64,000 nucleotides of DNA from Taklimakanibacter deserti (GTDB lineage: Bacteria; Pseudomonadota; Alphaproteobacteria; Rhizobiales; Aestuariivirgaceae). The translations under genes and the position numbers were made by a program. The notes below the pieces were generated by a model, which worked only from the letters and a program-made list of their open reading frames with translations, did not search any database and was not told where the DNA came from. This document shows positions 28,252 to 53,420 of the stretch, in pieces (position 1 is the first letter of the stretch; the number at the start of each line of letters is the position of its first letter). The DNA is taken from contig QORU01000015.1 in the NCBI GenBank assembly GCA_003574785.1, positions 62,001 through 126,000 of the forward strand, in the 5' to 3' direction.

Positions 28252-28628
28252 GGAGTCGCGGAGCCGATGCCTTGGCGCGCCGCCGCGAAATCAGGACCCT
28301 GCGCCATTGTCCAATCGAGGATCCTGTCGGCGAGTTCGAGGAAGCGCTGGCCAAGCCCGGTGAGCCGGTACTCCACGCGTGGCGGGACGACGGGAAAGAC
28401 CTTACGCGCAATGAGGCCGTCGCGCTCGAGTTGCTTCAATGTCCGCGTCAGCACTCTGGCCGAGATCGGGCGCGTTGCGCTGATCCGGCGCATGAGATCG
28501 GTGAACCGGATGGGCTCGCCTTCGATCATATGAATGACGCACACGCTCCACCTGTCGCCGAGCCGCGCCAGGACTTCCTGCGCAACCGCATAGCGCTCAT
28601 CGTTCATTGCTGCATGCCAGGGAGTCAT
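28227..28628 (-). CDS. HxlR-family (MarR-like) transcriptional regulator
   Basis: 133 residues with the HxlR winged helix: LGDRWSVCVIHMIEGEPIRF near residue 25, then ISARVLTRTLKQLERDGLI and the wing RKVFPVVPPRVEYRLT. Its ATG at 28628 overlaps the stop of the nucleotide cyclase gene by one base, so the two are translationally coupled. The longer frame to 28877 is a shadow. HxlR proteins often respond to oxidants or electrophiles. This copy has a single cysteine (WSVCV) near the usual redox position. Confidence 0.87.
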   Translation of the reverse strand: MTPWHAAMNDERYAVAQEVLARLGDRWSVCVIHMIEGEPIRFTDLMRRISATRPISARVLTRTLKQLERDGLIARKVFPVVPPRVEYRLTGLGQRFLELADRILDWTMAQGPDFAAARQGIGSATPQPFPSAA

Positions 28629-29323
28629 CAGGCGCTCTCCTTCATGGACCACGGGTGGAATATGGCGGGCCTGACCGCGAGCGGCCGCGCGCGGCCCGAG
28701 AGGGTGACCGAGAGCGCGGAGGGAAAATAATCGAGAAGGGCGGTATCGCCCGCAACTTGCGCGACGAGGCGGTAAAGCTCTTCCGATATGACGATGTCGG
28801 TGCCGAGACGACGGGTCTGGCGCTCGAGGCGGCTCGCGATATTCACCGTGTCGCCGAACACGCTGGGCTGATGGCACTCATCGGCATAAGGCCGCCCGAG
28901 CAGGACCGGCCCCGCATGGATGCCGATCCCGGCTTTCACCGCCGGGAGATTGCTCTTGGCGCGCCAGGCATTCCAGCGCTCCATCTCGACGAGGATGGCG
29001 AAGCCGCAGCGCAGCGCCCGGAAGGCCTGCACCGCGAGCGGCGCCTTGCCCTTCCACACCGCGAGCACCTCGTCGCCGAAATGATCGACGATGGCGGCAT
29101 CGTGCAGCGTGGTCGCCTGGCTGGTGCGCCGATAGAAATCGGCAAGCAGCAGGAAGGCCTCCTCGGGATCGAGGCTTTCGCAATGCTGGGTATAGCCGAC
29201 GATATCGGCGAACAAGGTGACGGCGGTCGTGACCTGCGGCAGGGATCGCGGCTCCTTGAGCTTCATGTCGGCGGCTCGTCCTTGGGCCTCGTGCAGGCTG
29301 CCATTGAAATGATACTGGTACAT
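28628..29323 (-). CDS. Class III adenylate/guanylate cyclase, catalytic domain only
   Basis: About 231 residues with a single cyclase homology domain. The metal aspartates lie in TLFADIVGYTQHCESLDPEE and HFGDEVLAVWKG, and the transition-state pair is in VFGDTVNIASRLERQTRR. No transmembrane or sensory domain is present. The ATG at 29323 is used; the frame runs on to 29518 without support. It is divergent from the OmpR/histidine-kinase pair across a 182-base gap, and its stop overlaps the HxlR start. Such stand-alone cyclases are frequent in rhizobia. Product choice (cAMP or cGMP) cannot be told safely. Confidence 0.85.
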   Translation of the reverse strand: MYQYHFNGSLHEAQGRAADMKLKEPRSLPQVTTAVTLFADIVGYTQHCESLDPEEAFLLLADFYRRTSQATTLHDAAIVDHFGDEVLAVWKGKAPLAVQAFRALRCGFAILVEMERWNAWRAKSNLPAVKAGIGIHAGPVLLGRPYADECHQPSVFGDTVNIASRLERQTRRLGTDIVISEELYRLVAQVAGDTALLDYFPSALSVTLSGRARPLAVRPAIFHPWSMKESA

Positions 29324-29377
29324 GGATGATTGTCCGGTCCTGTTCGCTCGATGGGTGCAATATGGGTGGCGGGGGTC

Positions 29378-29458
29378 GCGGAAATTGGGCGGAAAAAGCC
29401 GCATTTTCCGCGATCTGTCACAGGGCCCGCCTCTCGCCATAATTTGATACACTTTTCC
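29378..29458. promoter_or_regulatory. Divergent promoter region with repeated GCGGAAA sites and a TTGATACA motif
   Basis: GCGGAAA occurs at 29378 and 29389, exactly 11 bases apart, the spacing used by OmpR-family dimers. A reverse copy makes a GCGGAAAA-N7-TTTTCCGC inverted repeat at 29389-29411. TTGATACACTTTTCC follows at 29444-29458, and a nearly identical 15-mer lies upstream of the cytochrome c gene at 38071. These are candidates for binding by the adjacent response regulator. Confidence 0.4.
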
Positions 29459-29505
29459 CAGGGGCACACCTTTACTTGCCGTTATTGAGGTGTAGGGATC
29501 AGGGC

Positions 29506-30225
29506 ATGGACTCGGCACCCCATATCGCGGTCGTCGACGATCACCGCGACATTCGTGACCTGGTGGGCAAATATCTCACCAAGCACGGCTATCGCGTCTC
29601 GACGGCAGAGAATGCGACGAACTTGCGGCGGCTTCTCGACCGCAGCGCCTTCGACCTCATCGTCCTCGACGTCATGATGCCGGGCGAGGACGGCCTGTCG
29701 CTCTGCCGCTATGTGCGTTCGACCACCGAGGTGCCGGTCATCCTCCTCACCGCCATGACGGACGAGACCGACCGCATCATCGGCCTCGAGCTCGGCGCCG
29801 ACGACTATCTCGGCAAGCCGTTCAATCCGCGCGAGCTCCTGGCCCGCATCAAGGCGGTGCTGCGGCGCGTCACCAGCCTGCCGCCGCAGAAAGGGCGCAG
29901 CAAGGCGCAGCAAGTGAGGTTCGACCGCTGGCGGCTCGATGTCGGGCGCCGCGAGCTCTTAGGGCACGACGGCGTGGCGGTGCCGCTCTCGACCGCCGAG
30001 TACCGTTTGCTCTGCGCCTTCCTCGATCATGCCGGGCTGGTGCTGACGCGCGACCAGCTTCTCGACCTCACCGTCGGGCGCACCGCCGAGCTGTTCGACC
30101 GCAGCATCGATAACCAGGTGTCGCGCCTGCGCAAGAAGATCGAGCTCGATCCCAAGTCGCCGGCGCTCATCAAGACCCATTGGGGCGGCGGCTATTGCTT
30201 CGCCGCCGGCGTGGAGCAGGTCTGA
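29506..30225 (+). CDS. OmpR-family response regulator
   Basis: 239 residues. The receiver domain has acidic residues at VVDDHRD and the phosphoacceptor Asp55 in LIVLDVMMPGEDG, with Lys in YLGKPFNPREL. The C-terminal winged helix follows (PLSTAEYRLLCAFLDHAG and SIDNQVSRLRKKIE). Its stop overlaps the kinase start (TGATG), so the pair is translated together. The ATG at 29506 is used; the frame from 29476 begins before the likely ribosome site. Targets may include its own promoter. Confidence 0.92.
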   Translation: MDSAPHIAVVDDHRDIRDLVGKYLTKHGYRVSTAENATNLRRLLDRSAFDLIVLDVMMPGEDGLSLCRYVRSTTEVPVILLTAMTDETDRIIGLELGADDYLGKPFNPRELLARIKAVLRRVTSLPPQKGRSKAQQVRFDRWRLDVGRRELLGHDGVAVPLSTAEYRLLCAFLDHAGLVLTRDQLLDLTVGRTAELFDRSIDNQVSRLRKKIELDPKSPALIKTHWGGGYCFAAGVEQV

Positions 30226-31661
30226 TGCGCATCTGGGACCGCAGCATCGCCACGCAGTTCATCTGCCTCATGCTCTTCGCTCTCCTCTTGTCGCAGGCGA
30301 TCAGCTTCCTCATCTCGCGTGACGAGCGCGGCAATGCGGTGCGCGAAGCCTATAAGGGCGAGTTCCTGAGCCGCGCGGAAGCGGTGGCGCGGCTGCTCGA
30401 GACGACATCGCCTGCGATCGAGGATCAGATCACTCAGGCCAATAACACGCTGAACACGCGTTATTGGGTGACAGCGGAGCCGCCTCCCGCCGATCCCGAA
30501 ACCTGGCGCCAGGCGGCATGGGCGCGGCTGACGGAGCCTTTCACATCTTCGGAGTCGGCCGCTTTCATGGCCCGCGCGATCAAGAAGGATCTTCAGCATG
30601 ACAAGATCGGCGCCAGCGCGGTCATCGGTACCGGCTGGACCAACCTGTCACCGGAAGACTGGCATTCGCCTCGTCCGGCGAAATTCATCAGGCTCGATGA
30701 TTATTATGGCGTAGGCCTTGCCGTCGAGCTCAATCGCGGCACATGGCTCAACACCGCTTTTGCCAAGCCGGCGATGGGCGGTTTCTGGAGCTCCTCCGCT
30801 TTGTCCTTCGCGGTCACGGCGCTGACCCTGTCGATCATCACCATCCTCGCCGCACGCGCCATCACACGCCCGATGCGCCGCTTGGCGGTGGCGGCCGAGG
30901 CGCTGGGCCGCGGCGAGGCGACGACGCCGCTGCCCGAGACGGGTCCTCAGGACATGCGTTACACCGCGCAGGCCTTCAACCGCATGCAGCAGCGCTTGCA
31001 GCGCTTTGTGGCCGACCGCACCCGCATGCTGGCGGCGATCGGCCATGATCTGCGCACGCCGATCACCTCGCTCAGACTGCGCACCGAATTCGTCGGCGAC
31101 GCCGAAATCCGCGAGAAGATGCTGGCGACGATCGACGAGATGCAGAAGATGACCGAGGCGACGCTCACTTTCGCGCGCGAGGAATCGGCCGCCGAGGAGA
31201 CGCGCTCGATCGATCTCTCGGCCTTGGTGCAGTCGCTCTCCGACGATCTCGCCGATATGGGCCATGACGTCACGTTCAACAACGGCTTCAAGATCAAATA
31301 TCGCTGCCGCGCCGATGCGCTGAGGCGCGCCATCCGCAATCTGATCGAGAATGCGGTGCGCTACGGTCAGCGCGCGCGCGTCTCGATCACCAAGGGCGAG
31401 GACTCGATCGACATCGTGATCGAGGATGACGGGCCCGGCATTCCGCCCGAGCTTGCCGAGCAGGTCTTCGTGCCCTTCTATCGGCTCGAGGATTCGCGCA
31501 ATCGCGAGACGGGTGGCGTGGGCTTGGGCCTCTCCATCGCGCGCAGCATCGTGCGCAATCATGGCGGCGACATTAAGCTGGTCAATCGCCCAGGCGGCTT
31601 GCGCGCCATCATCACCTTGCCGGCGATCGACGCGCGCACAAGGCTTGCGGCCGCGGCTTGA
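30225..31661 (+). CDS. Sensor histidine kinase
   Basis: 478-residue inner-membrane kinase. One helix near residue 15 and a second near 190 bracket a periplasmic domain of about 150 residues. A HAMP segment follows (ITRPMRRLAVAAEALGRGE). The phospho-acceptor His274 lies in IGHDLRTPITSLR, and the ATP lid has NLIENAVRYG, EDDGPGIPPE and GVGLGLSIARSIV. It belongs to the EnvZ-like group. The signal is unknown. The stop codon is followed at once by palindromic repeat copy C. Confidence 0.92.
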   Translation: MRIWDRSIATQFICLMLFALLLSQAISFLISRDERGNAVREAYKGEFLSRAEAVARLLETTSPAIEDQITQANNTLNTRYWVTAEPPPADPETWRQAAWARLTEPFTSSESAAFMARAIKKDLQHDKIGASAVIGTGWTNLSPEDWHSPRPAKFIRLDDYYGVGLAVELNRGTWLNTAFAKPAMGGFWSSSALSFAVTALTLSIITILAARAITRPMRRLAVAAEALGRGEATTPLPETGPQDMRYTAQAFNRMQQRLQRFVADRTRMLAAIGHDLRTPITSLRLRTEFVGDAEIREKMLATIDEMQKMTEATLTFAREESAAEETRSIDLSALVQSLSDDLADMGHDVTFNNGFKIKYRCRADALRRAIRNLIENAVRYGQRARVSITKGEDSIDIVIEDDGPGIPPELAEQVFVPFYRLEDSRNRETGGVGLGLSIARSIVRNHGGDIKLVNRPGGLRAIITLPAIDARTRLAAAA

Positions 31662-31816: not shown

Positions 31817-32584
31817 TTACGGCCTCACCCCCGGCGTCTCGATCTTGAGCCCCTTGGCGCGCGACATGAGATAGGCTTCGAGCTCGATCATTTCCTGGGC
31901 GCCATAAGGGAAGGGCTCGGCGCGCATGCCGATCAGGCAATTGCGCAACCGCCTTTGCAGCGATCCGAGCGCCTGCCATTCGAGCCGGTAGAGCGGATAG
32001 GCGGTCGGATGCGCCTGCGGGATGACGCTGCCGCCGAGGCGCTGGCCAGGGGCGGCATCATGGCAGGCGGCGCAGGACAGGCCGAGCTGGCCCAGTCGGC
32101 GCTCGAACAGCGCCTGGCCGTTCTGCCGATGCCTGTCGAGTTTCGCATCCTGGGAAGGCGCGATCACCTGACCCCGCGATTGATGCGCCACATAGGCGGT
32201 GAGCGCCAGGAGCTCCGGGCTTTCATAGGCGAAGGGCGCCGCCGACTGCTTCTCCTGCCGGCAGAGATTGATCCGCTCCTGCAGGTCGATCAGCCGGCCG
32301 CCTTGCTTGTCGACTTGCGGATAGCGGATCGCCGCACCCCGCATGCTTTGCCGTGCCTCGCCATGGCATTGCGCACAGGCGGTGCCCGCCGGGTTGTCAC
32401 GGGCTTGCCACAGCGCCTCGCCCTCGGCGATCGAGAGCATGCCAGGATTGCTCAGATCGTCTTCCTGCATGGCTTGCGTCTCGGGCGCCATGAAGTCGAA
32501 GCCCGATTTCTTCTCGCCGGCCTGCAAGACTCCGCCGGATAAAATCAGAGCGGCCGCGGCGAGGAGCGGGAGCCGCCATGCCAT
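31817..32584 (-). CDS. soxA: Sulfur-oxidation c-type cytochrome SoxA (diheme form)
   Basis: 255-residue periplasmic protein with a Sec leader ending near LQA-GE. Two heme sites are present, CAQCH (70-74) and CAACH (171-175). Cys216 lies in RRLRNCLIGMRAEPFPYGAQ, the conserved place of the cysteine persulfide ligand of the active heme. SoxA joins a sulfur substrate to the SoxY carrier with SoxX as partner. The ATG at 32584 overlaps the soxZ stop. It is the last gene of the Mo-hydroxylase/FCSD/sox operon. Confidence 0.88.
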   Translation of the reverse strand: MAWRLPLLAAAALILSGGVLQAGEKKSGFDFMAPETQAMQEDDLSNPGMLSIAEGEALWQARDNPAGTACAQCHGEARQSMRGAAIRYPQVDKQGGRLIDLQERINLCRQEKQSAAPFAYESPELLALTAYVAHQSRGQVIAPSQDAKLDRHRQNGQALFERRLGQLGLSCAACHDAAPGQRLGGSVIPQAHPTAYPLYRLEWQALGSLQRRLRNCLIGMRAEPFPYGAQEMIELEAYLMSRAKGLKIETPGVRP

Positions 32585-32904
32585 CACACCACCTTGATCT
32601 CGGCGGTGGCGGTCTCGGTGTTGCCCTTGTCGTCGGTCCAGGCGAAAGCGATGGTGCCGCTCTTGGTCGCGATGGTGCTGAAAGCGATGAACGGATTGGC
32701 GGATATCGCCGGGAACAGCTCGGCGGCGAAGATCTCCGCCCCGTCATAGAAGCAGGTGAAGCGGTTGATGATGTTCCGCTCGATCGCCGCACCACCCGCA
32801 TCGCGGCGATAGCCCGTCTCCATCACATGGGCGATCATCGCCTTGATCTCGATGATCTCGCCGGTGTGCGCTTGCTTCGGCACGTTGATGAGGGCGCGCG
32901 TCAC
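32584..32904 (-). CDS. soxZ: Sulfur-carrier partner protein SoxZ
   Basis: 106 residues, canonical SoxZ: ETGYRRDAGGAAIERNIINR, ISANPFIAFST and the AWTDDKGNTETATAEIKVV end, an immunoglobulin-like fold without a leader. In known systems it reaches the periplasm bound to the Tat-exported SoxY. It starts with GTG, which overlaps the soxY stop (GTGA). No residue expected of SoxZ is missing. Confidence 0.92.
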   Translation of the reverse strand: MTRALINVPKQAHTGEIIEIKAMIAHVMETGYRRDAGGAAIERNIINRFTCFYDGAEIFAAELFPAISANPFIAFSTIATKSGTIAFAWTDDKGNTETATAEIKVV

Positions 32905-33278
32905 AGGAGATCCTCGACGCAGGCGGCGAGCGTCACGATCACCTTGGCCTCGCCCGACCAGAAGCTGCCGTCGCTGAGCTCGGCCACCGCCTTGACCGTC
33001 TGCGACGCGGCGAGGCGGATGCGGGTCGACACCTTGGCCTGTCCCGAGCGGGGGCCGAGATGGAAGATGGCGACGCCCGATTGCGGGTTCTTCTCATTGA
33101 AGAGGGCGATGCGCCGCACATGGTCGCTCGCCGTCATCGGGCTTTCCACCGTCACCGTGACGCCGACGGCATTGCCGTTCTCGACCAGAGGCGGGATGTC
33201 GAGATGGACGCGGCCGCTCCTTATGTCGGCGGAGCCCGCGAATTCCTGAACCGCTTCTTGCAGCGAGGGACGCGCCAT
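32901..33278 (-). CDS. soxY: SoxY-like sulfur carrier, leaderless and with atypical C-terminus
   Basis: 125 residues corresponding to the mature part of SoxY (LQEAVQEFAGSADIRSGRV onward). Two hallmarks are missing. There is no Tat leader, and the frame cannot be extended because the soxX stop lies two codons upstream in the same frame. The chain also ends VTLAACVEDLL in place of the canonical VTVGGCGG swinging arm. Cys120, in the register of the carrier cysteine, is the only cysteine. A good ribosome site (AAGGAG) precedes the ATG, so the start is firm. Whether it still carries sulfur is uncertain. Confidence 0.78.
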   Translation of the reverse strand: MARPSLQEAVQEFAGSADIRSGRVHLDIPPLVENGNAVGVTVTVESPMTASDHVRRIALFNEKNPQSGVAIFHLGPRSGQAKVSTRIRLAASQTVKAVAELSDGSFWSGEAKVIVTLAACVEDLL

Positions 33279-33281
33279 GTC

Positions 33282-33695
33282 TCACTCCTTGAGGGTAGTG
33301 AGGAAGGCGACAATGTCCTCGATTGCCTGCGCCTCGAGCACCGGCTTGCCGCGCCAGGCTTCGCCGACCCGTGCATGATCGGCGATGCGATAATAGGCTG
33401 GCATGATGGTCGAAGGATTGAGCCGCTTCATGTCGACGATACGCAAGCGGATCTGCCCTTCCGAGAGCCGGCCGCCCACACCGCGCAGATCCGGCGCCAG
33501 CGTGCCCTGGGCATGGGGTTCCGGAAACGGACCCTGATGGCAGAGCAGGCAAAGACTCGCTTGCCGACTCATCACCAGGCTTTGTCCGCGCGCGGCATCG
33601 CCGCGCTGGCCGGTGAGCGGCAGAGGAATGGCGTCACCCGCGACGGTATAGGGCAAGAGGCTCATGACGACCGGCATCATGATGAAGAACCTCAC
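33282..33695 (-). CDS. soxX: Sulfur-oxidation c-type cytochrome SoxX
   Basis: 137-residue monoheme cytochrome with a short Sec leader. CLLCH lies at 49-53 and the axial Met98 in RLNPSTIMPAYYR, a stretch diagnostic of SoxX. It pairs with SoxA. The start is a GTG at 33695 that overlaps the stop of the flavoprotein gene (GTGA); an ATG five codons later is possible. Its TGA is in the same frame as soxY, with only one sense codon between that stop and the soxY ATG. Confidence 0.87.
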   Translation of the reverse strand: MRFFIMMPVVMSLLPYTVAGDAIPLPLTGQRGDAARGQSLVMSRQASLCLLCHQGPFPEPHAQGTLAPDLRGVGGRLSEGQIRLRIVDMKRLNPSTIMPAYYRIADHARVGEAWRGKPVLEAQAIEDIVAFLTTLKE

Positions 33696-34966
33696 CCGAA
33701 GACTTCCCCGGTGATCGTCTGGAACCAGGCCTCGGCATAGGCAGCCTCGACGGCGCGCTGTGCGGGCTTGGCTTCGAGCGGACTCACGCCGCCCGCCCCT
33801 TTGATCTCGGTCAGGAGACCATCCTTGGGACTGTACACACCCGCGACCGAGATGCCGTAATCCGGGGCCACCAGGCTGTAGCAAGTATTGATGAGCTTCA
33901 CCTCATGCACTTCCTCGCCGCGCATGAGGCCCGCGATCATCTGGGCCGCGACCTTGGCCTGGGCATTGGCGGCGAAAGCGGATTTGGGCATGGCGCCGGC
34001 AATGGCGGCATCGCCGATCACATGGACATCGGGTCTGAGCTTCGATTCGAAGGTTAAGGGATCGATGGGGCACCAGCCGGTCTGGTCGGCGACGCCGGCC
34101 GAGACGGCGATGGCGCCAGCGCGCTGCGGCGGGATGACATTGGCGACATCGGCGCGGTGACTGCCGAATTCGGTGATGAGCGTCTTGCTGGCGGGATCGA
34201 CTTCCGTGACGCGGCCCCCTTGCGACAGCGGCACCCATTCGATGAGGCCCGGATAGAGGTCTTGCCACGCCGCCTGGAACAATTTCTGCTTGGAGAAGGT
34301 ATCCTTGGCGTCGAGCAGGATGAGCTTGGAGCGTGGTTTCCGGGCTTTCAGGTAATGCGCGATGAGGCTCGCCCGCTCATAGGGACCGGGCGGGCAGCGG
34401 AAGGGATTGGCCGGTGCCGACATGACGACCACGCCGCCATCCGCCATCGCCTCGAGCTGCTGGCGCAGGAGAACGGTCTGCGCGCCGGCCTTCCAGGCAT
34501 GCGGCATGATCTCGGCCGCCGGCTGGTCATAGCCCGGCAGCGCGTCGAATCTGAGATCGATGCCGGGCGCGAGCACGATGCGCTGATAGTCGAGGCTCCG
34601 GCCGTCGGCGAGCCGCACCTGGCTTGCGTCCCAATCGATCGCGACGACGATCTGCTCGGCGATCTCGACGCCGGATTTCTTCACGCCGTCGTAGCTGAAA
34701 TATTGCGCCTCGATCGGGCGCAGTCCGGCGATGACGGCGTTGCTGAAGGGGCAAGCGGCGAAGCGGTTGTTCGGCTCGATCAAGGTGACGGCGAATTTGC
34801 CCGCTTCCTGCTTGAGCCAGCGTGCGCACGTGGCGCCGGCAAAGCCGCCGCCGATGACGACGATGCGCTGAGGCGCCTGCCCGAGCACGGGCGGTGCGGC
34901 GAGGGCCACGAGCCCGGCGGCACCACCCTTCAGGATCGTCCTACGGTTTGGCGCCGCTTTGCGCAT
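33692..34966 (-). CDS. Flavocytochrome c sulfide dehydrogenase flavoprotein subunit (SoxF/FccB type)
   Basis: 424-residue periplasmic FAD protein. The Tat leader is NRRTILKGGAAGLVALAA, and the FAD motif is RIVVIGGGFAGATCARWLK. A redox cysteine pair is suggested by FAACPFSNAV and the later cysteine in TGWCPID, as in FCSD. ANPFRCPPGPYERASL and HVIGDAAIAGAMPKSAFAAN are typical FCSD text. It oxidises sulfide or a sulfur-bound cysteine and passes electrons to the small cytochrome encoded just upstream. The ATG at 34966 overlaps that gene by 26 bases; one at 34996 is also possible. Confidence 0.87.
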   Translation of the reverse strand: MRKAAPNRRTILKGGAAGLVALAAPPVLGQAPQRIVVIGGGFAGATCARWLKQEAGKFAVTLIEPNNRFAACPFSNAVIAGLRPIEAQYFSYDGVKKSGVEIAEQIVVAIDWDASQVRLADGRSLDYQRIVLAPGIDLRFDALPGYDQPAAEIMPHAWKAGAQTVLLRQQLEAMADGGVVVMSAPANPFRCPPGPYERASLIAHYLKARKPRSKLILLDAKDTFSKQKLFQAAWQDLYPGLIEWVPLSQGGRVTEVDPASKTLITEFGSHRADVANVIPPQRAGAIAVSAGVADQTGWCPIDPLTFESKLRPDVHVIGDAAIAGAMPKSAFAANAQAKVAAQMIAGLMRGEEVHEVKLINTCYSLVAPDYGISVAGVYSPKDGLLTEIKGAGGVSPLEAKPAQRAVEAAYAEAWFQTITGEVFG

Positions 34967-35264
34967 ACCAGTCCGCGATGGCGCGTATCTCTTCATCGGA
35001 ATACCCCTTTGCGATGCGGTCCATCACCGTCGCCTCGCGCTCGCCGCTGCGGAAAGCCGCCATTGCCGCGACGATGTCCTGCGCCGGCCTTCCTGCGAGA
35101 TTGGGCACGGCGCCTTCCATCGTCGGTGCATGACAGCCGGAACAGGCGGCAGCGGAGGTCTGAGCTGCCGCCTGTCCCGGACCCGCAAGCAGCGCAAGAA
35201 GAACGAGCGCGATCGGCTCGACGGGGGATCTTGCGCCGCTGCGATATGGCGAGGATGAGCGCAT
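34941..35264 (-). CDS. Small c-type cytochrome, probable FCSD heme subunit (SoxE-like)
   Basis: 107 residues with a Sec leader ending AAAQ and one heme site, CSGCH at 41-45, in the pattern AACSGCHAPTMEGAVPNLAGR. The end RIAKGYSDEEIRAIADWYAQ is typical of the cytochrome subunit of sulfide dehydrogenases and class I relatives. The ATG overlaps the stop of the molybdenum hydroxylase gene (TGATG), and its 3' end overlaps the flavoprotein start, so it is coupled to both. Confidence 0.83.
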   Translation of the reverse strand: MRSSSPYRSGARSPVEPIALVLLALLAGPGQAAAQTSAAACSGCHAPTMEGAVPNLAGRPAQDIVAAMAAFRSGEREATVMDRIAKGYSDEEIRAIADWYAQSGAKP

Positions 35265-37435
35265 CAGGCGAGGTTGTGGTTCTTCAACGGCAAAATGCGG
35301 ATGCGCTTGCCGGTGGCGGCGAAGACGGCATTGAGCACCGCGGGCGCCGCGACCGCGATGGTAGGCTCGCCCACCCCGCCCCAGAAGCCGCCCGAGGGTA
35401 TGATGATCGTCTCGACTTGCGGCATCTCGGCCATGCGCATGACTTCATAAGTGTCGAAGTTCTCCTGCTCCATGCGCCCACCATTGACGATGCATTCGCC
35501 ATAGAGGCAGGCGGAGAGGCCATAGACGAAGGAGCCTTCGACCTGCCTTTCGATCTGCGCCGGATTGACGATGTGGCCGGGATCGGTCGCCGCCACGATG
35601 CGGTGGATCTTGAGCTGGCCATTGTCGACCGAGACCTCGGCGGCCGCCGCGACATAGCTGCCGAAGCCCATGATCTGGGCGAGGCCCCGATGCACGCCCT
35701 GCGGCGGCGGGTTGGTCCAGCCGATGCGCTCGGCGACCGCGTCCAGCACGGCGAGGTGCTTGGGATGCTGCGCCATGAGCTTGCGCCGGAAGGCGAGCGG
35801 ATCCTGGCCTGCCGCATGGGCAAGCTCGTCCATGAAGCATTCGACATAGATGGCATTCTGGTTGAGATTGACGCCCCGCCAGAAGCCCGGCGGCACCGGC
35901 GGATTGCGCATCGCATGGTCGATGAGAAGATTGTCGACCGAATAGCCGAATTCGTTCTCGGGGCCTTTCGGGTTGAGGCCCTGGAAGACGACCGGGTCCT
36001 TGCCGTTCTGCATGCCGTCGGGCCGGACCGAAGCGAGGATCGACTGGCCCGACAGGCGCATGTGCAAGGCGGTCAGGTTGCCTTGGTCATCGAGAACGCC
36101 GGTGAGCTTGCATTGCGTCGTCGGATGATAGGCGCCATGCAGCATGTCCTCCTCGCGCGACCAGATGAGCTTGACGGGTGTGCCCGGCATCTCCTTGGCG
36201 ATCAGCACGGCCTGGCGCACATAATCCTGGAAGGCGCCGCGCCGGCCGAAGCCGCCGCCCAGATGGATCTTGTGGACGTCGCATTGCTGCGGCGGCAGAC
36301 CCGCCGCTTCGGCGGCCGCCGCGAGGCTGCCTTCGCCATTCTGCGTCGGCACCCACACTTCGCAGCGCTCCGGCGACCACACCGCCGTTGCATTCATCGG
36401 CTCCATGGTGGCGTGGTTCTGATAGGGGAAGGCATAGGTGGCCGTCACCTTCCTGCCCGGCCCCGCGAGTGCCTTCAGCACATCGCCATTCTCATTGCCG
36501 ACGAAAGCTTCCTTGGCCTCCAGTCCTTCGGCCAGCATCTCGGCGATCTTGGTGCTGGTGAGATCCTTGTTCGGGCCTTCGTCCCAGACGATCGGCAAGG
36601 CGTCGAGCGCCGTCTTGGCGCGCCACCATGTGTCGGCGACGACGGCGACGGCGGTGTCGCCGACCTGCACGACCTTGCGCACGCCCGGCATGTTGGCGAC
36701 GGCATTCGCCTCGAAGCTCTTGACCTTCCCGCCGAAGACCGGACAGGCCTTGATCGCGGCATTCAGCATGTTGGGCTGCTTGAGATCGATGCCATAGACC
36801 TGCTTGCCGGTGAGCTTGTCGGCGGTGTCGAGCCGGGGCAGCGGCTTGCCGGCGATGGTCCAGTCTTTCGGATCCTTGAGCGGAACATCGGCGGGCGGCG
36901 TCACCTTGGCCGCTTCTTCCGCGACCTTGCCATAGGTGGTGCTGCGACCGCTGGCTTGATGCGCGATGACGCCCTTGCTCACCGAGCATTCCGTGGCCGG
37001 CACATTCCATTCGGCCGCGGCGGCCTGGATCAGCATGGCGCGCGCGGTGGCGCCGCCCTTGCGCACATATTCCTGCGATTCGCGGATGCCGCGGCTGCCG
37101 CCGGTCGAGAAGCTGCCCCAGATGCGGTCACGCGCCAGATTGGCGCCAGGCGTCGGATATTCGGTGGTGACCTTCGACCAGTCGCATTCGAGCTCTTCGG
37201 CGACGAGCTGGGCAAGGCCGGTCAGCGTTCCCTGGCCCATCTCCGAGCGCGCGATACGGATGACCACCGTGTCGTCGGGCTTGATGACCACCCAGGCATT
37301 GATCTCGGGAGACATGCCGGTAGCGGCGAGCGCGGCCTTCGGCAGCGGCACATGAAAGCCCAGCATGAGCCCGCCCGTGGCGGCGATGGAGCCCGCGATG
37401 AAATTGCGCCGCGAAAGATTTGGAATCATGTTCAT
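35264..37435 (-). CDS. Periplasmic molybdenum hydroxylase large subunit, IorB type
   Basis: 723-residue xanthine-oxidase-family subunit that binds Mo-molybdopterin cytosine dinucleotide. A Tat leader (NLSRRNFIAGSIAATGG) shows periplasmic placement. Motifs include MGQGTLTGLAQLVAEELE, IHLGGGFGRRGAFQDYVRQ, and the catalytic glutamate in FWGGVGEPTIAVAAPA. It is the isoquinoline 1-oxidoreductase beta type, also used for aldehydes and N-heterocycles, which normally passes electrons to cytochromes. GAGGAGG lies seven bases before the ATG at 37435. The overlap with the FCSD cytochrome ties it to the sox genes. The substrate is unknown. Confidence 0.88.
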   Translation of the reverse strand: MNMIPNLSRRNFIAGSIAATGGLMLGFHVPLPKAALAATGMSPEINAWVVIKPDDTVVIRIARSEMGQGTLTGLAQLVAEELECDWSKVTTEYPTPGANLARDRIWGSFSTGGSRGIRESQEYVRKGGATARAMLIQAAAAEWNVPATECSVSKGVIAHQASGRSTTYGKVAEEAAKVTPPADVPLKDPKDWTIAGKPLPRLDTADKLTGKQVYGIDLKQPNMLNAAIKACPVFGGKVKSFEANAVANMPGVRKVVQVGDTAVAVVADTWWRAKTALDALPIVWDEGPNKDLTSTKIAEMLAEGLEAKEAFVGNENGDVLKALAGPGRKVTATYAFPYQNHATMEPMNATAVWSPERCEVWVPTQNGEGSLAAAAEAAGLPPQQCDVHKIHLGGGFGRRGAFQDYVRQAVLIAKEMPGTPVKLIWSREEDMLHGAYHPTTQCKLTGVLDDQGNLTALHMRLSGQSILASVRPDGMQNGKDPVVFQGLNPKGPENEFGYSVDNLLIDHAMRNPPVPPGFWRGVNLNQNAIYVECFMDELAHAAGQDPLAFRRKLMAQHPKHLAVLDAVAERIGWTNPPPQGVHRGLAQIMGFGSYVAAAAEVSVDNGQLKIHRIVAATDPGHIVNPAQIERQVEGSFVYGLSACLYGECIVNGGRMEQENFDTYEVMRMAEMPQVETIIIPSGGFWGGVGEPTIAVAAPAVLNAVFAATGKRIRILPLKNHNLA

Positions 37436-37447
37436 CTGTGCGCCTCC

Positions 37448-37918
37448 TCAGCCGTTGGTCGTTGTGGTGTTTTGGGATGCGGCGAGCTTGATCGCGGCGC
37501 GCACGCGGTTATAGGTGCCGCATCTGCAGATATTGGTCATCTCGGCATCGATATCGGCATCGCTGGGATTGGGGTTCTGGGCGATGAGCGAGGCGGCCGC
37601 CATGATCATGCCGGCCTGGCAATAGCCGCATTGTGGGACATCGAGCGTGGCCCAGGCCTTCTGCACCGGATGCGATCCGTCGGGCGAGAGCCCTTCGATG
37701 GTCACGATCTTCTGCTCCGGCACAACCGCGCTGACAGGTGTCGCGCAAGCGCGTGTCGCGACACCATCTATATGTACCGTGCAGGAACCGCATTGCGCGA
37801 TGCCGCAGCCATATTTCGTGCCGGTAAGCCCGGCCTGCTCGCGCAGGACCCAGAGCAGCGGCGTGTCGGGATCGACATCGATATCACGAGTAGTGCCATT
37901 GATTGTCAGTCGGGCCAT
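37448..37918 (-). CDS. [2Fe-2S] subunit of molybdenum hydroxylase, IorA type
   Basis: 156 residues with two iron-sulfur clusters. Plant-type ligands are Cys38, 43, 46 and 58 in [16 protein letters not shown] and RAC; the second cluster has Cys97, 100, 131 and 133 in QCGYCQAGM and [10 protein letters not shown]. It has no leader of its own and would travel bound to the Tat-exported large subunit. AGGAGACC precedes the ATG at 37918. It is the first gene of the eight-gene operon that ends with soxA. Confidence 0.9.
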
Positions 37919-38203
37919 TCGGGGTCTCCTGAGATGATGGGGTGCCAAGCCGGAACTGGGCGCTGCCGCGCCGCAATGAACTCTCGAGGCTAAGGACGAC
38001 CTGTCGCAGAAACTTGGCCACGGGCGCTCAATTTGTCTCCGCTTGTCGCCGATGGGCCGGCTGACACAGCTTGATACAATTTTCCGAAGACCGCGCCCTG
38101 AGTCCGACGCCGGCGCCGCCTACCTACATGTCCGGACGGCCTTGCGCATGCGGACCTGCTTCGCATGACAGATTTTTTGTTGTTTGATCAGGGAGATTGT
38201 TGA
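37919..38203. promoter_or_regulatory. Divergent intergenic region between Mo-hydroxylase/sox operon and cytochrome c gene
   Basis: This 285-base gap is the only place where a promoter for the iorAB-sox operon can lie. It holds TTGATACAATTTTCC at 38071-38085, nearly the same as a motif before the response regulator gene at 29444. A CATGCG-N9-CGCATG inverted repeat lies at 38147-38167, 36 bases before the cytochrome ATG. AGGGAG serves as ribosome site for the cytochrome. No riboswitch or small RNA was recognised. Confidence 0.45.
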
Positions 38204-38593
38204 ATGAGATTGAGACCGGCCATGACCTTCGCTGTCATGTTTGTCATCGGCATCGGCGCGCCTTTCGTGGCGTCGGCGCAACAGGCGGGCGATGGGGAGC
38301 GCCTGTTCCGCCAGCGCTGTGCTGCCTGTCACGCGCTTGAAGCCGGGCAGAACAAGGCCGGGCCGCATCTCGATGGCCTCATCGGCAGAAAGGCCGGCAG
38401 TGTCGAAGGGGCGCGCTATTCCCGCGCACTGCAAGGCGCCGAGATCACCTGGGACGAGCAGACGCTCGACGGTTTCCTCGCCAATCCGCGCAAGGCAGTC
38501 TCCGGCACGACGATGGTGGTCGGCGTGCCCAATGAGGCTCAGCGCAAGGCCATCATCGCCTATCTCAAATCGGTGCCGGCGGCCGCCAATTGA
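38204..38593 (+). CDS. Class I c-type cytochrome (cytochrome c2-like)
   Basis: 129-residue periplasmic monoheme cytochrome. The Sec leader ends FVASA-QQ, the heme site CAACH lies at 39-43, and the axial methionine is probably Met104 in SGTTMVVGVPNEAQ. The DGLIGRKAGSVEGARYSRAL stretch is typical of soluble cytochrome c2. It is divergent from the molybdenum hydroxylase operon and is a good candidate for its electron acceptor. It converges with another cytochrome gene 15 bases away. Confidence 0.9.
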   Translation: MRLRPAMTFAVMFVIGIGAPFVASAQQAGDGERLFRQRCAACHALEAGQNKAGPHLDGLIGRKAGSVEGARYSRALQGAEITWDEQTLDGFLANPRKAVSGTTMVVGVPNEAQRKAIIAYLKSVPAAAN

Positions 38594-38608: not shown

Positions 38609-39097
38609 CTAGTCGGGCATGATGACCGTCAGATAAGGCGCCGACGGCTTTTCCGCATGGCCGGCAATGGCCGGGACCTGATGATGGATAGGCTTCAGGC
38701 TCTTGAGATAAGCAGCAAGCGCATAGGCATCCGCATCGGTCAGCTTGCCATAGTGGCCATAAGGCATCACCGGCGCCAGGATGCGCCCATCGGGGCGTTC
38801 ACCGGTGCGCACCGCTTTGACGATATCGTCGGCGCTCCAGTTGCCCAGCCCCGTCTCGCGATCGGGTGTCAGATTGGGCGGGTAGAAGATACCGAGGCCT
38901 GGAATCTGGAAACCCACTTCGGAGCCCGCGAGATAGCGTTCGGGATCGGGCTTGCCGAGAAACACGCCCGTCGTGTGGCAACCGCCGCAATCCATGATGG
39001 TGGCGAGATACTCGCCGCGGCGCAGCGTGTCGTCGGCCGCGGATGCCGCGTCGGCAAGGGCCAGCAGGCTCGCAAGGGCAAGCAAAGATTTTCGCAT
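38609..39097 (-). CDS. c-type cytochrome (aldehyde/alcohol dehydrogenase-associated type)
   Basis: 162 residues with a Sec leader ending ASA-AD, one heme site CGGCH at 37-41 in the MDCGGCHTTG context, and a Met ligand likely in LAPVMPYGHYGKLTD. The IPGLGIFYPPNLTPDRETGLG stretch, of which the YPPNLTPD core is most conserved, matches the single domains of the multi-heme cytochromes that accept electrons from molybdenum aldehyde dehydrogenases and PQQ enzymes. It starts 24 bases after the TetR gene on the same strand. Confidence 0.85.
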   Translation of the reverse strand: MRKSLLALASLLALADAASAADDTLRRGEYLATIMDCGGCHTTGVFLGKPDPERYLAGSEVGFQIPGLGIFYPPNLTPDRETGLGNWSADDIVKAVRTGERPDGRILAPVMPYGHYGKLTDADAYALAAYLKSLKPIHHQVPAIAGHAEKPSAPYLTVIMPD

Positions 39098-39121
39098 GAT
39101 CGCTCCGTTCAGATGATTGGC

Positions 39122-39739
39122 TCAGGTCCTTCGCCGCGGCTTTCGCGCGGCGTCCACCAGCGCGCGGATGGCCCATTGCTTGACCTTGCGCGCTTCCGTG
39201 TCGCTCGTCTGCAGGACGTCCTTGAAGACCACGATCCCCTCGGTTCCGATGATGAGCGCCAGCGCCTTGTGCAGAAGCTTGAGGGCGGCGGGATCGAACT
39301 CGTTCCGTTCGGGCTTGAGTGCCGCCTCGATCAAGGGGCTGCGGCGGTTCTGGCGTGGCGGGATGTCGCTGTCCCCGCCGCCCTTGACGACCCGCTGCAG
39401 CGAATGCACCAGCATCATCCTGAGCGAAGGCTCATTGGCGAGGATCATGTCGTGAAGCGTGGTATCGACGAGATTGAGCCGCTCGACCGGATCGCTGGAG
39501 GAGTCGTTGCGGAAGAGCGCGTCGGCATCCGGCACGGCGAGGTCGAGGGAAGCCTCGACGAGCAGCGCCTCGACGCCCGGGAAATAGCGATAGGCCGTGG
39601 CGCGCGACACCATGGCTTCATCGGCGATTTCTTCGAGGCTTGGATTTTGCCCGTGCTTCATGAGGCGCGCCGCGGCCTGCAGCAGATCCTTGCGGGTCCG
39701 CCGCCGCTGATTGGCGCGGCCGGCACCTTCGCCATCCAT
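39122..39739 (-). CDS. TetR-family transcriptional regulator
   Basis: 205 residues with the helix-turn-helix SLEEIADEAMVSRATAYRYF near residue 35 and a variable ligand domain. It follows the SnoaL-like gene by five bases. The ATG at 39739 is used; the frame to 39790 overlaps that gene. The perfect-arm inverted repeat at 40200-40217 upstream of the pair is the probable operator for self-control. Confidence 0.88.
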   Translation of the reverse strand: MDGEGAGRANQRRRTRKDLLQAAARLMKHGQNPSLEEIADEAMVSRATAYRYFPGVEALLVEASLDLAVPDADALFRNDSSSDPVERLNLVDTTLHDMILANEPSLRMMLVHSLQRVVKGGGDSDIPPRQNRRSPLIEAALKPERNEFDPAALKLLHKALALIIGTEGIVVFKDVLQTSDTEARKVKQWAIRALVDAARKPRRRT

Positions 39740-39744
39740 GTGCG

Positions 39745-40164
39745 TCACTCCTGCGGCAACTGCCGCATGATGGCGGCGAAATCGATCCACACATTCTCAT
39801 GGCCGATCTCACCGGTATTGGTGAATTCGATGACGTGAAGCAGCCGGAATTCGAGCGGCCGGTCGCGGCCTTCCAGTCCGAACGGCCTGCCATGCGCCCT
39901 GCCGTGCCAGAGCGATTCATCGACCAGGAAATTCTCGCCATAAAGCCGCCTCAGGCTGTCGACACGGCTTTCGGAGAGATCGGCGAAGAGCCGCTCATAG
40001 AAGACGCGGGCCTCGGCGCGGCCATAGGAAGGGCCGCTGGGCCAGCCGACGACATCATGCACGGCGTCGCAAGCGAGCGTCGCGAGCACGCCTTCCACGT
40101 CGTCACGGGCTTCGAAGCCGAAATGCTCGTCGAGCTTACGGTCCATTTCCGCAGGGGTCAGCAT
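39745..40164 (-). CDS. SnoaL/NTF2-like protein
   Basis: About 139 residues of the NTF2-like cone fold: AEMDRKLDEHFGFEARDDVE at the start, then HDVVGWPSGPSYGRAEARVF and ENVWIDFAAIMRQLP. Members bind or isomerise small hydrophobic compounds. TGAGGAA before the ATG at 40164 supports that start; an ATG at 40176 is the alternative. It is the first gene of a TetR-controlled transcription unit. The substrate is not known. Confidence 0.8.
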   Translation of the reverse strand: MLTPAEMDRKLDEHFGFEARDDVEGVLATLACDAVHDVVGWPSGPSYGRAEARVFYERLFADLSESRVDSLRRLYGENFLVDESLWHGRAHGRPFGLEGRDRPLEFRLLHVIEFTNTGEIGHENVWIDFAAIMRQLPQE

Positions 40165-40256: not shown

Positions 40257-41750
40257 CTATAGCCGCATATCGCGGTCGAGCGGAAAGATCGGCCGCGGCA
40301 CATTGCGGTAAGGCAATCGCTCCAGATAGGTCGTGCACAAAGCGCCGCTGTCGCAGACGATCACCTTGCCGGCGATGGGCTCGAAGGCGGCGCGGAAATG
40401 CTGCATGGATTTGAGCGCCACCACCGTCTTCGCCGCCGGATCGATGCCGAAGGCGCGGAACTGCTGCAGGTCCAGCATCTGGGCCGGCTCCGTCACCACC
40501 AATATGTCGATGCCGCCGACTTTCAGCACCGCCGTCGGCCCGAAGCTCAGCCGCAATTTGCCGACCATGGGCCCGTCACCGACATAGGATCCGTCGCTGA
40601 CCAGCTTCAGCTCGCCCTCGACATCGAGCGGTGCGCCGCCGAAGCGCGGATCGGTCTTGCCGCCGAGGCTCAGCCTGACGCGCTCGCCCACCTTGTGCTT
40701 GTGCAATTGCCGCGCGGCTTCGGGATCGACCATCGGGCCATAGGCGGCGTCCGCGATGCCGGCATCGAGCATGGCCTTCAGCAAATTAGTCGAATCGCCA
40801 TAACCGCCACCGCCCGGATTGTCGGCATAATCGGCGATGATGATCGGACCATTCTGGCGCTTGTAGGTTTTGGCAACGGCGGCGGCTTCCTCCACCGTCA
40901 TGAAGCTGTTGATGACCTCGAAGCGCTTCTCCCAGATGTCGTCGGCGAGGCCCTCGGCGAAAGCGCGGTGTGGTACCTCATTGCCCTCGTAAGTGACGAG
41001 CACGGTCGGTCCGACGTCCCAGATGTCGGCATTGCCGAAGCCGGCATTGATGCTGACGGCGAACACGCCCGGCTCTTTCTCATAGGCGACGGCCTTCGCC
41101 ATGCGCTCGATCATCGGGCCGACATCGGTGCGCCCGCTATTGGCTTCGTCCAGCATCGGGCGATGCGCGCGCAAGGTGCGCGGCCGGATCTCGCCCTTCA
41201 TCGTGCGCTCGAGAATGTCGCCCGCCTGGCGGGCGCGTTCGCGCATGTCGATATGCGGATAGGTCTTGTAGGAGACGATGATATTGGCGAGCGCGCACAT
41301 CTTGGGCGTGACATTGGCATGGGGATCGAGCGTGATGGCGATTGGAAGATCGGGCCCCACCACCTGGCGCAGCCGCTCGAGCAGCTCGCCTTCGCCGTCT
41401 TCGCAGAAATCGGTCACCATGGCGCCATGCAGCGCCAGAGCGATGCCGTCGAGACTGTCCTTGTGCTTGGCGGCGGCAGCGACGATGGCGCCGCCCAGCC
41501 GGTCGAAGGCATCGCGCGTCACATAGCCTGCGGGCTCGGCCGCCGTGCTCAGCACATGGATATGCTTCCAGCCATATTTGCGTTCCGCGTCGCAGAAGCC
41601 GGCGAGCCCAGTATTGGCGTCGCCGAGCTCGCGGATCGCGTCCGCGCCGAAATAGCCGAAGCGCTCCATGAAAGCGTCATAGTCGGTGAGGTTCCTGTTG
41701 AAGGTGTTGGTCTCATGCATGAACTCGGCGGAAAGGACGGTGAAGGTCAT
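40257..41750 (-). CDS. M81-family metallopeptidase (MlrC/microcystinase C type)
   Basis: 497 residues of the MlrC family, which includes the third enzyme of microcystin breakdown, a zinc peptidase that cuts short peptides. The N-terminus has EFMHETNTFNRNLTDYD (HET motif), then LALHGAMVTDFCEDGEGELL and TLDPHANVTPKM, which supply likely metal-binding Asp and His, and the DYADNPGGGGYGDST loop. Its start overlaps the stop of the DppF-type ATPase gene (ATGA), so it is translated with a dipeptide-type importer and probably acts on what that importer brings in. Confidence 0.88.
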   Translation of the reverse strand: MTFTVLSAEFMHETNTFNRNLTDYDAFMERFGYFGADAIRELGDANTGLAGFCDAERKYGWKHIHVLSTAAEPAGYVTRDAFDRLGGAIVAAAAKHKDSLDGIALALHGAMVTDFCEDGEGELLERLRQVVGPDLPIAITLDPHANVTPKMCALANIIVSYKTYPHIDMRERARQAGDILERTMKGEIRPRTLRAHRPMLDEANSGRTDVGPMIERMAKAVAYEKEPGVFAVSINAGFGNADIWDVGPTVLVTYEGNEVPHRAFAEGLADDIWEKRFEVINSFMTVEEAAAVAKTYKRQNGPIIIADYADNPGGGGYGDSTNLLKAMLDAGIADAAYGPMVDPEAARQLHKHKVGERVRLSLGGKTDPRFGGAPLDVEGELKLVSDGSYVGDGPMVGKLRLSFGPTAVLKVGGIDILVVTEPAQMLDLQQFRAFGIDPAAKTVVALKSMQHFRAAFEPIAGKVIVCDSGALCTTYLERLPYRNVPRPIFPLDRDMRL

Positions 41751-42745
41751 GGCGTTTCCCGATTTTGAGGTGAGAGGTTGGGGTTGAAGCAGGCCGTTTC
41801 ATGGTCGTCGGCGGAGGTCTCGAGACGCGGCCGTTCGCTGCGGCAGCGGGCATCGGCATAGGTGCAGCGCGCCGCGAAGGCGCAGCCCGGCGGCAGGTCG
41901 AAGGGGCTCGGGATCTCGCCCGAGAGCTGGCCAATCTCACGCCGCCTTGTCGGATCGGGCGCGAAGGTGCTGTCGAGCAGGGTCTGCGTATAAGGATGGC
42001 GGGGTCTCGCCTTGGGATGAGGAAGGATCTCGACGATGCGGCCGAGATACATGACGACGATGCGGTCGCAGAAATAACGCACCAGCCCCAGATCATGCGA
42101 GATGAAGAGATAGGTGAGGCCGAGTTCGCGCTTCAGCCTTTCGAGCAAAGTGATGATCTGCGCCTGGATCGAGACGTCGAGCGAGGCGGTGGGTTCATCG
42201 AGCACCAGGAAGTCGGGCTCGAGCGCCAGCGCTCGGGCGATACCGACACGCTGGCGCTGGCCGCCCGACAATTGATGCGGATGGCTTTCGCCGAGCTTGC
42301 GGTCGAGACCCACCATGGCGAGCAGCGCTTCGACCTTGCTACGCGCCGCGCCGGCGCTGAGCTTCAGGCCTTGCACCTTGAACGGCTCGAGCAAGGCATC
42401 GGCGACGCGGTAGCGCGGATCGATCGAGGAATAGGGGTCCTGGAAGACCATTTGCATGCGCCGGCGCTGGCGCCGCATTTCCTGATGCGACAGGCCTCTG
42501 AGATCGACGCCGTCGAAGACGACGCGTCCGCTCGTCGCCTCCAGGAGGCGCAGAGCGAGGCGCGCCAAAGTCGACTTGCCGCAGCCCGATTCGCCGACCA
42601 CGCCCGTCACCTGTCCGCGCGGTATGTCGAGCGTTACCTGGCTCACCGCCGTCATCTTGCGGCTGCCGCCGAACAGGCCCTTGCGGCTCTCGAAGACTTT
42701 GTCGAGCTCGCGAAGCTCGACAAGCGCTGGCATCTTGTCAGCCAT
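41747..42745 (-). CDS. Oligopeptide/dipeptide ABC transporter ATPase, DppF type
   Basis: 332-residue ATPase: Walker A GESGCGKST, signature [14 protein letters not shown], Walker B FLVLDEPTASLD. The C-terminal oligopeptide-transport domain has the four-cysteine cluster region GCAFAARCTYADARCRSERP, typical of the DppD/F group. It overlaps the DppD-type gene by a few bases and the M81 gene by four. The ATG at 42745 is chosen; the frame to 43033 is a shadow. Confidence 0.92.
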   Translation of the reverse strand: MADKMPALVELRELDKVFESRKGLFGGSRKMTAVSQVTLDIPRGQVTGVVGESGCGKSTLARLALRLLEATSGRVVFDGVDLRGLSHQEMRRQRRRMQMVFQDPYSSIDPRYRVADALLEPFKVQGLKLSAGAARSKVEALLAMVGLDRKLGESHPHQLSGGQRQRVGIARALALEPDFLVLDEPTASLDVSIQAQIITLLERLKRELGLTYLFISHDLGLVRYFCDRIVVMYLGRIVEILPHPKARPRHPYTQTLLDSTFAPDPTRRREIGQLSGEIPSPFDLPPGCAFAARCTYADARCRSERPRLETSADDHETACFNPNLSPQNRETP

Positions 42746-43706: not shown

Positions 43707-43708
43707 GA

Positions 43709-53404: not shown

Positions 53405-53420
53405 AGTCCCATTCCTCTCC

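Follow-up and report, generated by a model that had tools for sequence, protein, structure and literature searches.

In this study we address the question of why the sulfur-oxidation genes soxXYZA of Taklimakanibacter deserti stand in line with iorAB, the genes of a molybdenum hydroxylase, with neither SoxB nor SoxC nearby. The genes lie on contig QORU01000015.1, in a stretch of 64,000 nucleotides (positions 62,001 to 126,000) that is referred to in its entirety as the window. We show here that IorAB, SoxXA and a variant SoxYZ carrier form a conserved unit, often together with flavocytochrome c sulfide dehydrogenase (FCSD) and a linked two-component system, and that the type of the SoxY arm sorts with the enzyme encoded beside it. 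Based on these associations and on conserved residues, we tentatively favour a Sox system that would work independently of SoxB and SoxCD round a xanthine-oxidase-family hydroxylase, with IorAB oxidizing a thiol on the SoxYZ carrier. The joining of half of the known sulfur-oxidation machinery to a carbon-oxidizing molybdenum enzyme, in many soil- and plant-associated bacteria, points to an uncharacterized sulfur-linked pathway. As read from the open reading frames and family searches, eight consecutive genes occupy positions 31817-37918 of the minus strand, in the order iorA-iorB-cyt-FCSD-soxX-soxY-soxZ-soxA:

37448..37918, minus strand: iorA, small [2Fe-2S] subunit of a xanthine-oxidase-family molybdenum hydroxylase (PF01799 and PF00111 above cut-off; orthologs adjoin iorB in relatives; no signal peptide visible)
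35264..37435, minus strand: iorB, molybdenum-binding subunit (PF20256 and PF02738 above cut-off)
34941..35264, minus strand: small mono-heme cytochrome c with the motif CSGCH (PF13442, PF00034)
33692..34966, alternative start 34996, minus strand: FCSD (SoxF-like) flavoprotein (PF21706 and PF09242 above cut-off)
33282..33695, minus strand: soxX, mono-heme cytochrome c (TIGR04485, 68.2 bits, cut-off 61)
32901..33278, minus strand: soxY variant of the AACIE-arm type, AACVEDLL in the window (TIGR04487, 199.9 bits, cut-off 172)
32584..32904, minus strand: soxZ (TIGR04490, 94.9 bits, cut-off 76)
31817..32584, minus strand: soxA, two CxxCH motifs (TIGR04484, 218.5 bits, cut-off 110; 1h31_A, E 2e-43)

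These coordinates and profile matches agree with the eight genes and families named in the initial annotation of the window. Its account of the junctions is likewise correct: a 12-base gap separates iorA from iorB, TGATG joins iorB to the cytochrome gene and soxZ to soxA, GTGA joins FCSD to soxX and soxY to soxZ, and soxX and soxY are joined as TGA-GAC-ATG, while the 26-base overlap of the cytochrome and FCSD genes is conditional on the FCSD start at 34966 and becomes 56 bases with the start at 34996. It had also been stated that SoxB and SoxCD are absent; this stands for SoxB and SoxC, neither of which gave a tblastn match in the 64-kb window with one query each, but no search for SoxD was made.

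The order of the genes exceeds chance because it recurs identically in relatives. We compared 80 loci, the best 80 of 227 from a SoxY-alignment scan of genome contigs and therefore a set biased to close relatives, and found IorB adjoining soxXYZA in identical order in 73 of them, which bears out the conserved linkage that the initial annotation had left for checking in relatives. In six of the seven loci without IorB, SoxY is at most about 2.2 kb from the contig end on the upstream side; the seventh, L049, is a true exception. This order is common to named alpha-, beta- and gammaproteobacteria, among them mesorhizobia, methylobacteria and azospirilla; five Ancylobacter loci (L024, L028, L034, L037 and L041) have the gene order of the window, and soxXYZA directly follows iorAB in records of Roseomonas, of offshore Alphaproteobacteria and of Burkholderiales. 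The flanks of the 80 loci contained no match to soxB or soxC of at least 40% identity. The operon is thus not a local oddity, and the linkage of iorAB with soxXYZA is strongly conserved. With regard to the substrate, the identified neighbours that recur conspicuously were limited to the two-component system, cytochrome c550 and a generic family of ABC ATPases (21 loci); the other recurring flank clusters were shadow frames or without identification.

The carrier protein of this unit departs from canonical SoxY, a feature that the initial annotation does not mention. The best NCBIfam model for the window SoxY is TIGR04487, the 'SoxY-related AACIE arm protein', whereas the true-SoxY model TIGR04488 gave 96.2 bits, below its cut-off of 125. 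TIGR04487 is a protein model of type 'exception', and its output says nothing on IorAB, a regulator or a function. In the alignment the window arm reads TLAACVEDLL against the canonical TIGGCGG, with the carrier cysteine retained, and four arm columns that are glycine in at least 90% of 15 canonical SoxY rows read A/A/V/E. Round the cysteine, LAACIED was present in 44 of the 80 loci and AAC in 79, the remaining one having LPACIEG. The genes for SoxY and SoxZ are separate, and the model of the fused quinoprotein-type SoxYZ, TIGR04557, gave 62.1 and 40.5 bits with the window proteins against a cut-off of 140. Compared with canonical Sox systems, SoxX, SoxA and SoxZ exceed their family cut-offs and the carrier cysteine and the active cysteine of SoxA are retained; however, the arm is AACVE and not GGCGG, SoxB and SoxC are missing from the vicinity and the molybdenum enzyme is of another fold.

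The main support for oxidation on the carrier, and the reason that we favour it, is that this arm type tracks IorB. We used 289 genomes from the class of T. lacteus, the nearest named relative (centre G001; Alphaproteobacteria by the organism's name), and 274 from the class of Luteimonas (Gammaproteobacteria by the organism's name). TIGR04487 exceeded its cut-off in 16 of the 289 genomes, G001 included, and in one of the 274, the centre itself. A reverse search with IorB, in which the best three candidates per genome were scored, found a copy of at least 51% identity in 27 of the 289 genomes, separated by a gap from the next listed copies at 45% or less. All 16 TIGR04487 genomes carry such an IorB, of the same clade, including cases with the genes on different contigs, and an xAC arm is present on the SoxY of 26 of the 27 IorB genomes. 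The same division emerged when all 87 SoxY-type matches in the 289 genomes were read in a census, with flanks of mostly about 8 kb a side. Among 34 loci with an xAC arm, IorB was a neighbour in 27 (21 with at least 50% identity and six, L200, L201, L202, L249, L252 and L253, with 27-38%) and SoxB in none, while among 52 loci with a GGC arm IorB was a neighbour in none and SoxB in 26; the single SGC arm, in L203, has an IorB of 37% identity. Fisher tests of arm against partner, uncorrected for relatedness, gave p values of 3.4e-16 for IorB and 9.0e-8 for SoxB. Eighteen of the 52 GGC carriers are frames of at least 169 residues and probably fused SoxYZ-like proteins, and without these long frames the 34 remaining GGC loci have IorB in none and SoxB in 26.

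The census also brought some other arrangements to light. In L249, L252, L253, L201 and L203 a SoxY with a GAC or SGC arm adjoins a distant IorB (31-38% identity), and in L201 (G098:C18) two iorAB pairs in tandem adjoin soxYZ, FCSD, soxX and soxA. Eight loci (L231, L233, L235, L239, L211, L141, L204 and L259), some of them at contig ends, have an unfused GGC SoxY with neither SoxB nor IorB in the fetched stretch.

The window IorB contains both the MoCoBD_1 and the MoCoBD_2 domain and retains the glutamate of the GVGEP motif, the catalytic residue, which is E in all 15 aligned rows printed. Its nearest solved chain is 8gy3_C, the large subunit of an aldehyde dehydrogenase (E 1.1e-78) that we take to come from Gluconobacter. 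Both enzymes are of the xanthine-oxidase family and have, as judged by eye, a signal resembling those of twin-arginine translocation (Tat) on the large subunit (SRRNFIAGS in the window); however, in the case studied here no cytochrome follows the enzyme in its occurrence, and it belongs to a separate clade. In a tree of 67 IorB rows, made by a quick method and with two long branches flagged, Sox-linked IorB proteins of at least 60% identity formed one clade of 55 rows (SH-aLRT 100), or of 57 rows (SH-aLRT 86) with L195 and L196 added, and other IorB fell outside. The Sox-linked clade departs in 31 columns from all nine other IorB rows compared. The distant IorB of L201-L203 are placed outside it, and therefore the pairing with xAC or SGC carriers is wider than the clade. 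Ten loci of paralogous IorB (45% identity or less; L272-L281), two of them with short flanks, were free of Sox genes over the length fetched. Ancylobacter has a second iorAB pair near the operon, and another iorAB pair is present in G590.

With respect to the loading of the carrier, the window SoxA retains both haem motifs and the active-site cysteine (RRLRNC), and SoxX its haem motif and methionine. SoxA residues C172, C175, H176, R213, C217 and R222 are common to the 13 canonical SoxA proteins compared, so that on conserved residues the cysteine-ligated active haem characteristic of SoxXA appears to be in place and the loading step could still run. The FCSD protein was aligned to 5n1t_A with an E value of 1.8e-141, the cysteines of CPFSN, FRCPPGP and TCYSL being common to both, and its N terminus is twin-arginine-like by eye. 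FCSD was found in 66 of the 80 loci, and the small cytochrome in 60 of these 66 and in none of the 14 FCSD-negative loci; the joint absence of the two in 14 loci includes two (L022 and L047) truncated by contig ends. FCSD and the small cytochrome are therefore optional parts of the unit. Because its presence follows FCSD, the small cytochrome is probably the FCSD haem subunit. The idea that it is a subunit of IorAB was rejected, as it was never found without FCSD in the 80 loci, and in this set none of the operon cytochromes follows IorAB rather than FCSD. The cytochrome c550 encoded next to the operon is a possible electron acceptor.

We also searched 20 whole genomes, hand-picked from the named loci, and found SoxB above its cut-off in six, SoxC in eight, either in nine and neither in 11. 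In T. lacteus the best SoxB score was 104 bits against a cut-off of 550, and SoxC gave no match. The expectation of the initial annotation that soxB and soxCD are also absent elsewhere in the genome thus holds for the 11 picked relatives with neither SoxB nor SoxC, but not for the six with SoxB. As evidence to the contrary, that annotation had named a complete second sox set; given that the SoxB region has its own GGCGG SoxY in five of the six SoxB-positive genomes (L145-L149; the SoxY of L150 was not read), we do not count these genomes as such evidence. The unit is mostly SoxB-independent, and thiosulfate oxidation by means of a SoxB encoded elsewhere was rejected for most carriers on the basis of these genome searches.

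A cluster of this kind has been described before. In Starkeya novella a 'second sox cluster', soxX2Y2Z2A2F2, was reported together with the molybdenum enzyme Snov_1975/1976 (Kappler et al., 2013; PMC3797975); by its description in the parts of the report drawn on here, it has the same gene content, with neither soxB nor soxCD and a molybdenum enzyme of the same kind. According to the same parts, expression of the cluster was very low on glucose, methanol or thiosulfate, its SoxAX and SoxYZ proteins were undetected, one FCSD subunit was detected at low levels, though not on glucose, and a lack of function or other conditions were offered as explanations. The near-silence of the cluster on thiosulfate fits with oxidation on the carrier and is counted for it. 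The report concerns one species, and in these parts no conservation, arm variant or linked regulator is reported. Among the matches listed in our search of the open-access literature the cluster was treated in PMC3797975 only; the components are known, and their combination has been reported once and little noticed. A SoxY census of 2024, in the portion considered here, deleted sequences without a GGC motif (PMC11237559), a filter that would presumably remove the AACIE type. SoxY proteins of this type are often annotated plainly in the sources as 'sulfur-oxidizing protein SoxY', a label that suggests thiosulfate oxidation, and the present evidence speaks against this. Two systems are comparable as far as the available parts of the reports describe them. 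Symbiont SoxY arm variants likewise have divergent swinging arms tied to other enzymes (PMC11237559), and the quinoprotein-associated SoxYZ-like carrier (TIGR04557; Pseudomonas putida PP_2677) is likewise encoded beside a periplasmic carbon-oxidizing dehydrogenase, but unlike the window it is a fused SoxYZ with a pyrroloquinoline quinone (PQQ) enzyme, SoxH and a rhodanese (PMC12997753).

How such a system might work can be outlined as follows. In the periplasm, a thiol R-CH2-SH would be joined by SoxXA to the cysteine of the SoxY arm, forming a mixed disulfide, and the carbon adjoining the sulfur would be hydroxylated by IorAB while the molecule is held by the arm. The resulting alpha-hydroxy disulfide would then give an aldehyde and a SoxY persulfide, so that a single IorAB step would stand in for both the arm clearing by SoxB and the molybdenum oxidation by SoxCD on thiosulfate. 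Where present, FCSD and its cytochrome would take the sulfane sulfur or sulfide, and SoxXA, cytochrome c550 or other c-type cytochromes may serve as electron sinks. We regard as somewhat doubtful the fuller version of this proposal, a pathway for carrier-bound organic thiols in which the altered-arm SoxYZ presents organosulfur to the hydroxylase, this one enzyme replaces SoxB and SoxCD, and in some lineages SoxYZ is exported together with IorAB or FCSD. If it is true, the principle of the Sox carrier applies to organic as well as inorganic sulfur, and an IorAB that acts on SoxY-bound substrate would add both a new chemistry to the molybdenum hydroxylases and a new branch to the sulfur cycle.

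Several observations weigh against oxidation on the carrier. To our knowledge, hydroxylation of a disulfide held on a protein would be without precedent in the xanthine oxidase family. SoxB exceeded its cut-off in six of the 27 IorB-carrying genomes as against 20 of the 262 others, a weak enrichment rather than a depletion (Fisher p 0.023). Methylobacterium sp. WSM2598 (L049) has an AAC-type soxXYZA without iorAB in 10 kb on either side, and in the census IorB is missing from the neighbourhood of seven of the 34 xAC loci. Contig ends truncate two of these (L091 and L119) and two (L129 and L138) have IorB on another contig of the genome, but three with a GACS arm (L205, L208 and L209), which have soxXYZA and neither soxB nor iorAB in the fetched stretch, are left without explanation. 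In L202, also with a GACS arm, soxYZ, FCSD and a distant IorAB are present without soxXA in the fetched stretch. Finally, G086, the one IorB genome without an xAC SoxY, lacks soxYZ but has iorA-iorB-soxX-soxA, the SoxX and SoxA frames being open (L193, G086:C1:2347000-2366000); its assembly is one 5.44-Mb contig for a genome given as 5.4 Mb, SoxY gave no match genome-wide, and the carrier has therefore been dispensable at least once. Upstream in L193 are MoxR-like and VWA genes, CoxD/CoxE-like by eye.

The initial annotation had suggested that the hydroxylase acts first and the Sox proteins afterwards. The linked unit on which this was based is indeed conserved, but an arm that tracks the molybdenum enzyme favours oxidation on the carrier. 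If IorAB were to oxidize a soluble organosulfur compound, with the freed sulfide or sulfane passing to SoxXA/SoxYZ and FCSD, the frequency of FCSD (66/80 loci) and a conserved, mostly SoxB-independent unit would be accounted for; the change of the SoxY arm with IorB and the omission of FCSD from 14 of the 80 loci, two of them contig-cut, would however be left unexplained, and we consider this route unlikely. Only slightly less unlikely is that IorAB oxidizes a compound without sulfur, for instance an aldehyde or an N-heterocycle, while SoxXYZA keeps the enzyme working, either as a source of sulfane sulfur for the Mo=S ligand or as a sink for poisoning thiols or sulfide. Fused SoxYZ-like carriers accompany PQQ alcohol dehydrogenases, for which maturation, redox control or protection has been proposed in the parts of the reports considered here (PMC12997753; PMC11237559). 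An aldehyde dehydrogenase as the nearest solved relative of IorB would be in line with such a role, as would the retention of IorAB and SoxXA without SoxY in G086. However, sulfuration of such molybdenum enzymes normally precedes Tat export, and the ten paralogous IorB loci lack Sox genes in the fetched stretches; therefore this enzyme type has no general need of Sox help.

It has also to be considered that the cargo is inorganic, with SoxYZ carrying sulfide or sulfane and IorAB replacing SoxCD as a sulfane dehydrogenase. The retained loading residues of SoxXA, the common occurrence of FCSD and the mild enrichment of SoxB in genomes with this IorB would be in agreement with it, but characterized IorAB relatives oxidize C-H bonds or aldehydes and no xAC carrier has a neighbouring SoxB to clear a sulfonate from the arm. 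The S. novella data, as far as the available parts of that report go, point both ways, since one FCSD subunit of the cluster was detected at a low level, except on glucose, while on thiosulfate the cluster was very low and the main sox cluster high; altogether we hold this route to be improbable. That the genes are merely co-regulated, encoding unrelated enzymes needed in the same habitat, might be suggested by the absence of FCSD with its cytochrome, of SoxYZ or of SoxXA in one place or another. We think this very improbable, since the order is kept across three proteobacterial classes (alpha, beta and gamma), the Sox-linked IorB form one clade, the arm type sorts with its partner in the 87-match census, and the co-occurrence holds in 16 of 16 genomes even with the genes on different contigs.

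Returning to the proposal that IorAB acts on the carrier, the export of SoxYZ deserves attention. An RR is present near the N terminus of all 15 canonical SoxY proteins compared. By eye, the SoxY proteins of the window and of T. lacteus (L001) begin as the mature protein from the first residue with no visible signal peptide, and the same was seen in Steroidobacter/Peristeroidobacter (L023, L039 and L043) and Geminicoccus (L048); L047 looks signal-less too, but starts at a contig end. Other exported proteins of these loci retain signal-like N termini where the start is clear (by eye), and on the IorB tree the signal-less lineages occupy three distinct positions. Export in complex with a Tat-signalled partner would account for this pattern. 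In some lineages SoxYZ may thus have lost its own export signal and may pass the Tat pore with IorAB or FCSD.

A two-component system and a conserved site are also part of the unit. The two-component genes (29476-31661) adjoin soxA in the window, and the features concerned are:

29476..30225, plus strand: OmpR-type response regulator (Response_reg, Trans_reg_C)
30180..31661, plus strand: histidine kinase (HAMP, HisKA, HATPase_c)
38001..38011, minus strand: operator-like conserved site TTCTGCGACAG upstream of iorA, exact in the window
38204..38593, plus strand: divergent cytochrome c550-like gene (PF00034; a relative flanks 25 of the 80 loci)

In 40 of the 80 loci, orthologs of the two-component genes lie no more than 10 kb from the operon, on one side or the other and in varying orientation, with identities of 71-90% for the response regulator and 53-80% for the histidine kinase. 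The site lies in the intergenic region common to iorA and the cytochrome c550 gene. With up to two mismatches, TTCTGCGACAG precedes iorA in 36 of the 42 regions, the window among them, that have the two-component system, a count that is not independent because the motif was derived from the same regions, many of them from Mesorhizobium or Ancylobacter, and in 3 of 43 regions without the system, which equals the chance rate of 0.07 per 300 bases. The best ten-letter word was present in 33 of the 42 regions compared with at most four in shuffles. We suggest that the response regulator binds the site, so that the system would sense a signal and switch the operon through TTCTGCGACAG, and the linked regulator with its operator-like site offers a direct route to the inducer and hence to the substrate.

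The stricter pattern TTCTGCGACAN{6,10}CTAG gave 15 sites over 23 searched genomes, 13 of which have a site, and 12 of the 15 precede iorA of the operon; the backward control gave 13 sites anywhere. The other three lie between the response regulator gene and soxA (L224), before another iorAB (L214) and elsewhere (L218). A broad regulon was rejected, as the stray sites may be due to chance in view of the control. In L227 (G590:C22) an operator-like site at position 10125 precedes a second, paralogous iorAB, possibly again by chance given the control. A second exact TTCTGCGACAG in the window, at 53043-53053 on the plus strand, lies inside a gene (52874-53458) and was taken as chance.

As to the neighbouring genes, an adenylate/guanylate cyclase domain protein is encoded at 28628-29518 on the minus strand, divergent from the response regulator gene. 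Adjoining cytochrome c550, another cytochrome c gene and a gene for a TetR-type regulator occupy 38609-39790 (minus strand), and neither found a match in the 80 loci when used as a query. At 40257-44596, likewise on the minus strand, a gene for an MlrC-type M81 metallopeptidase is followed by what appear, by eye, to be genes of a dipeptide-type ABC transporter.

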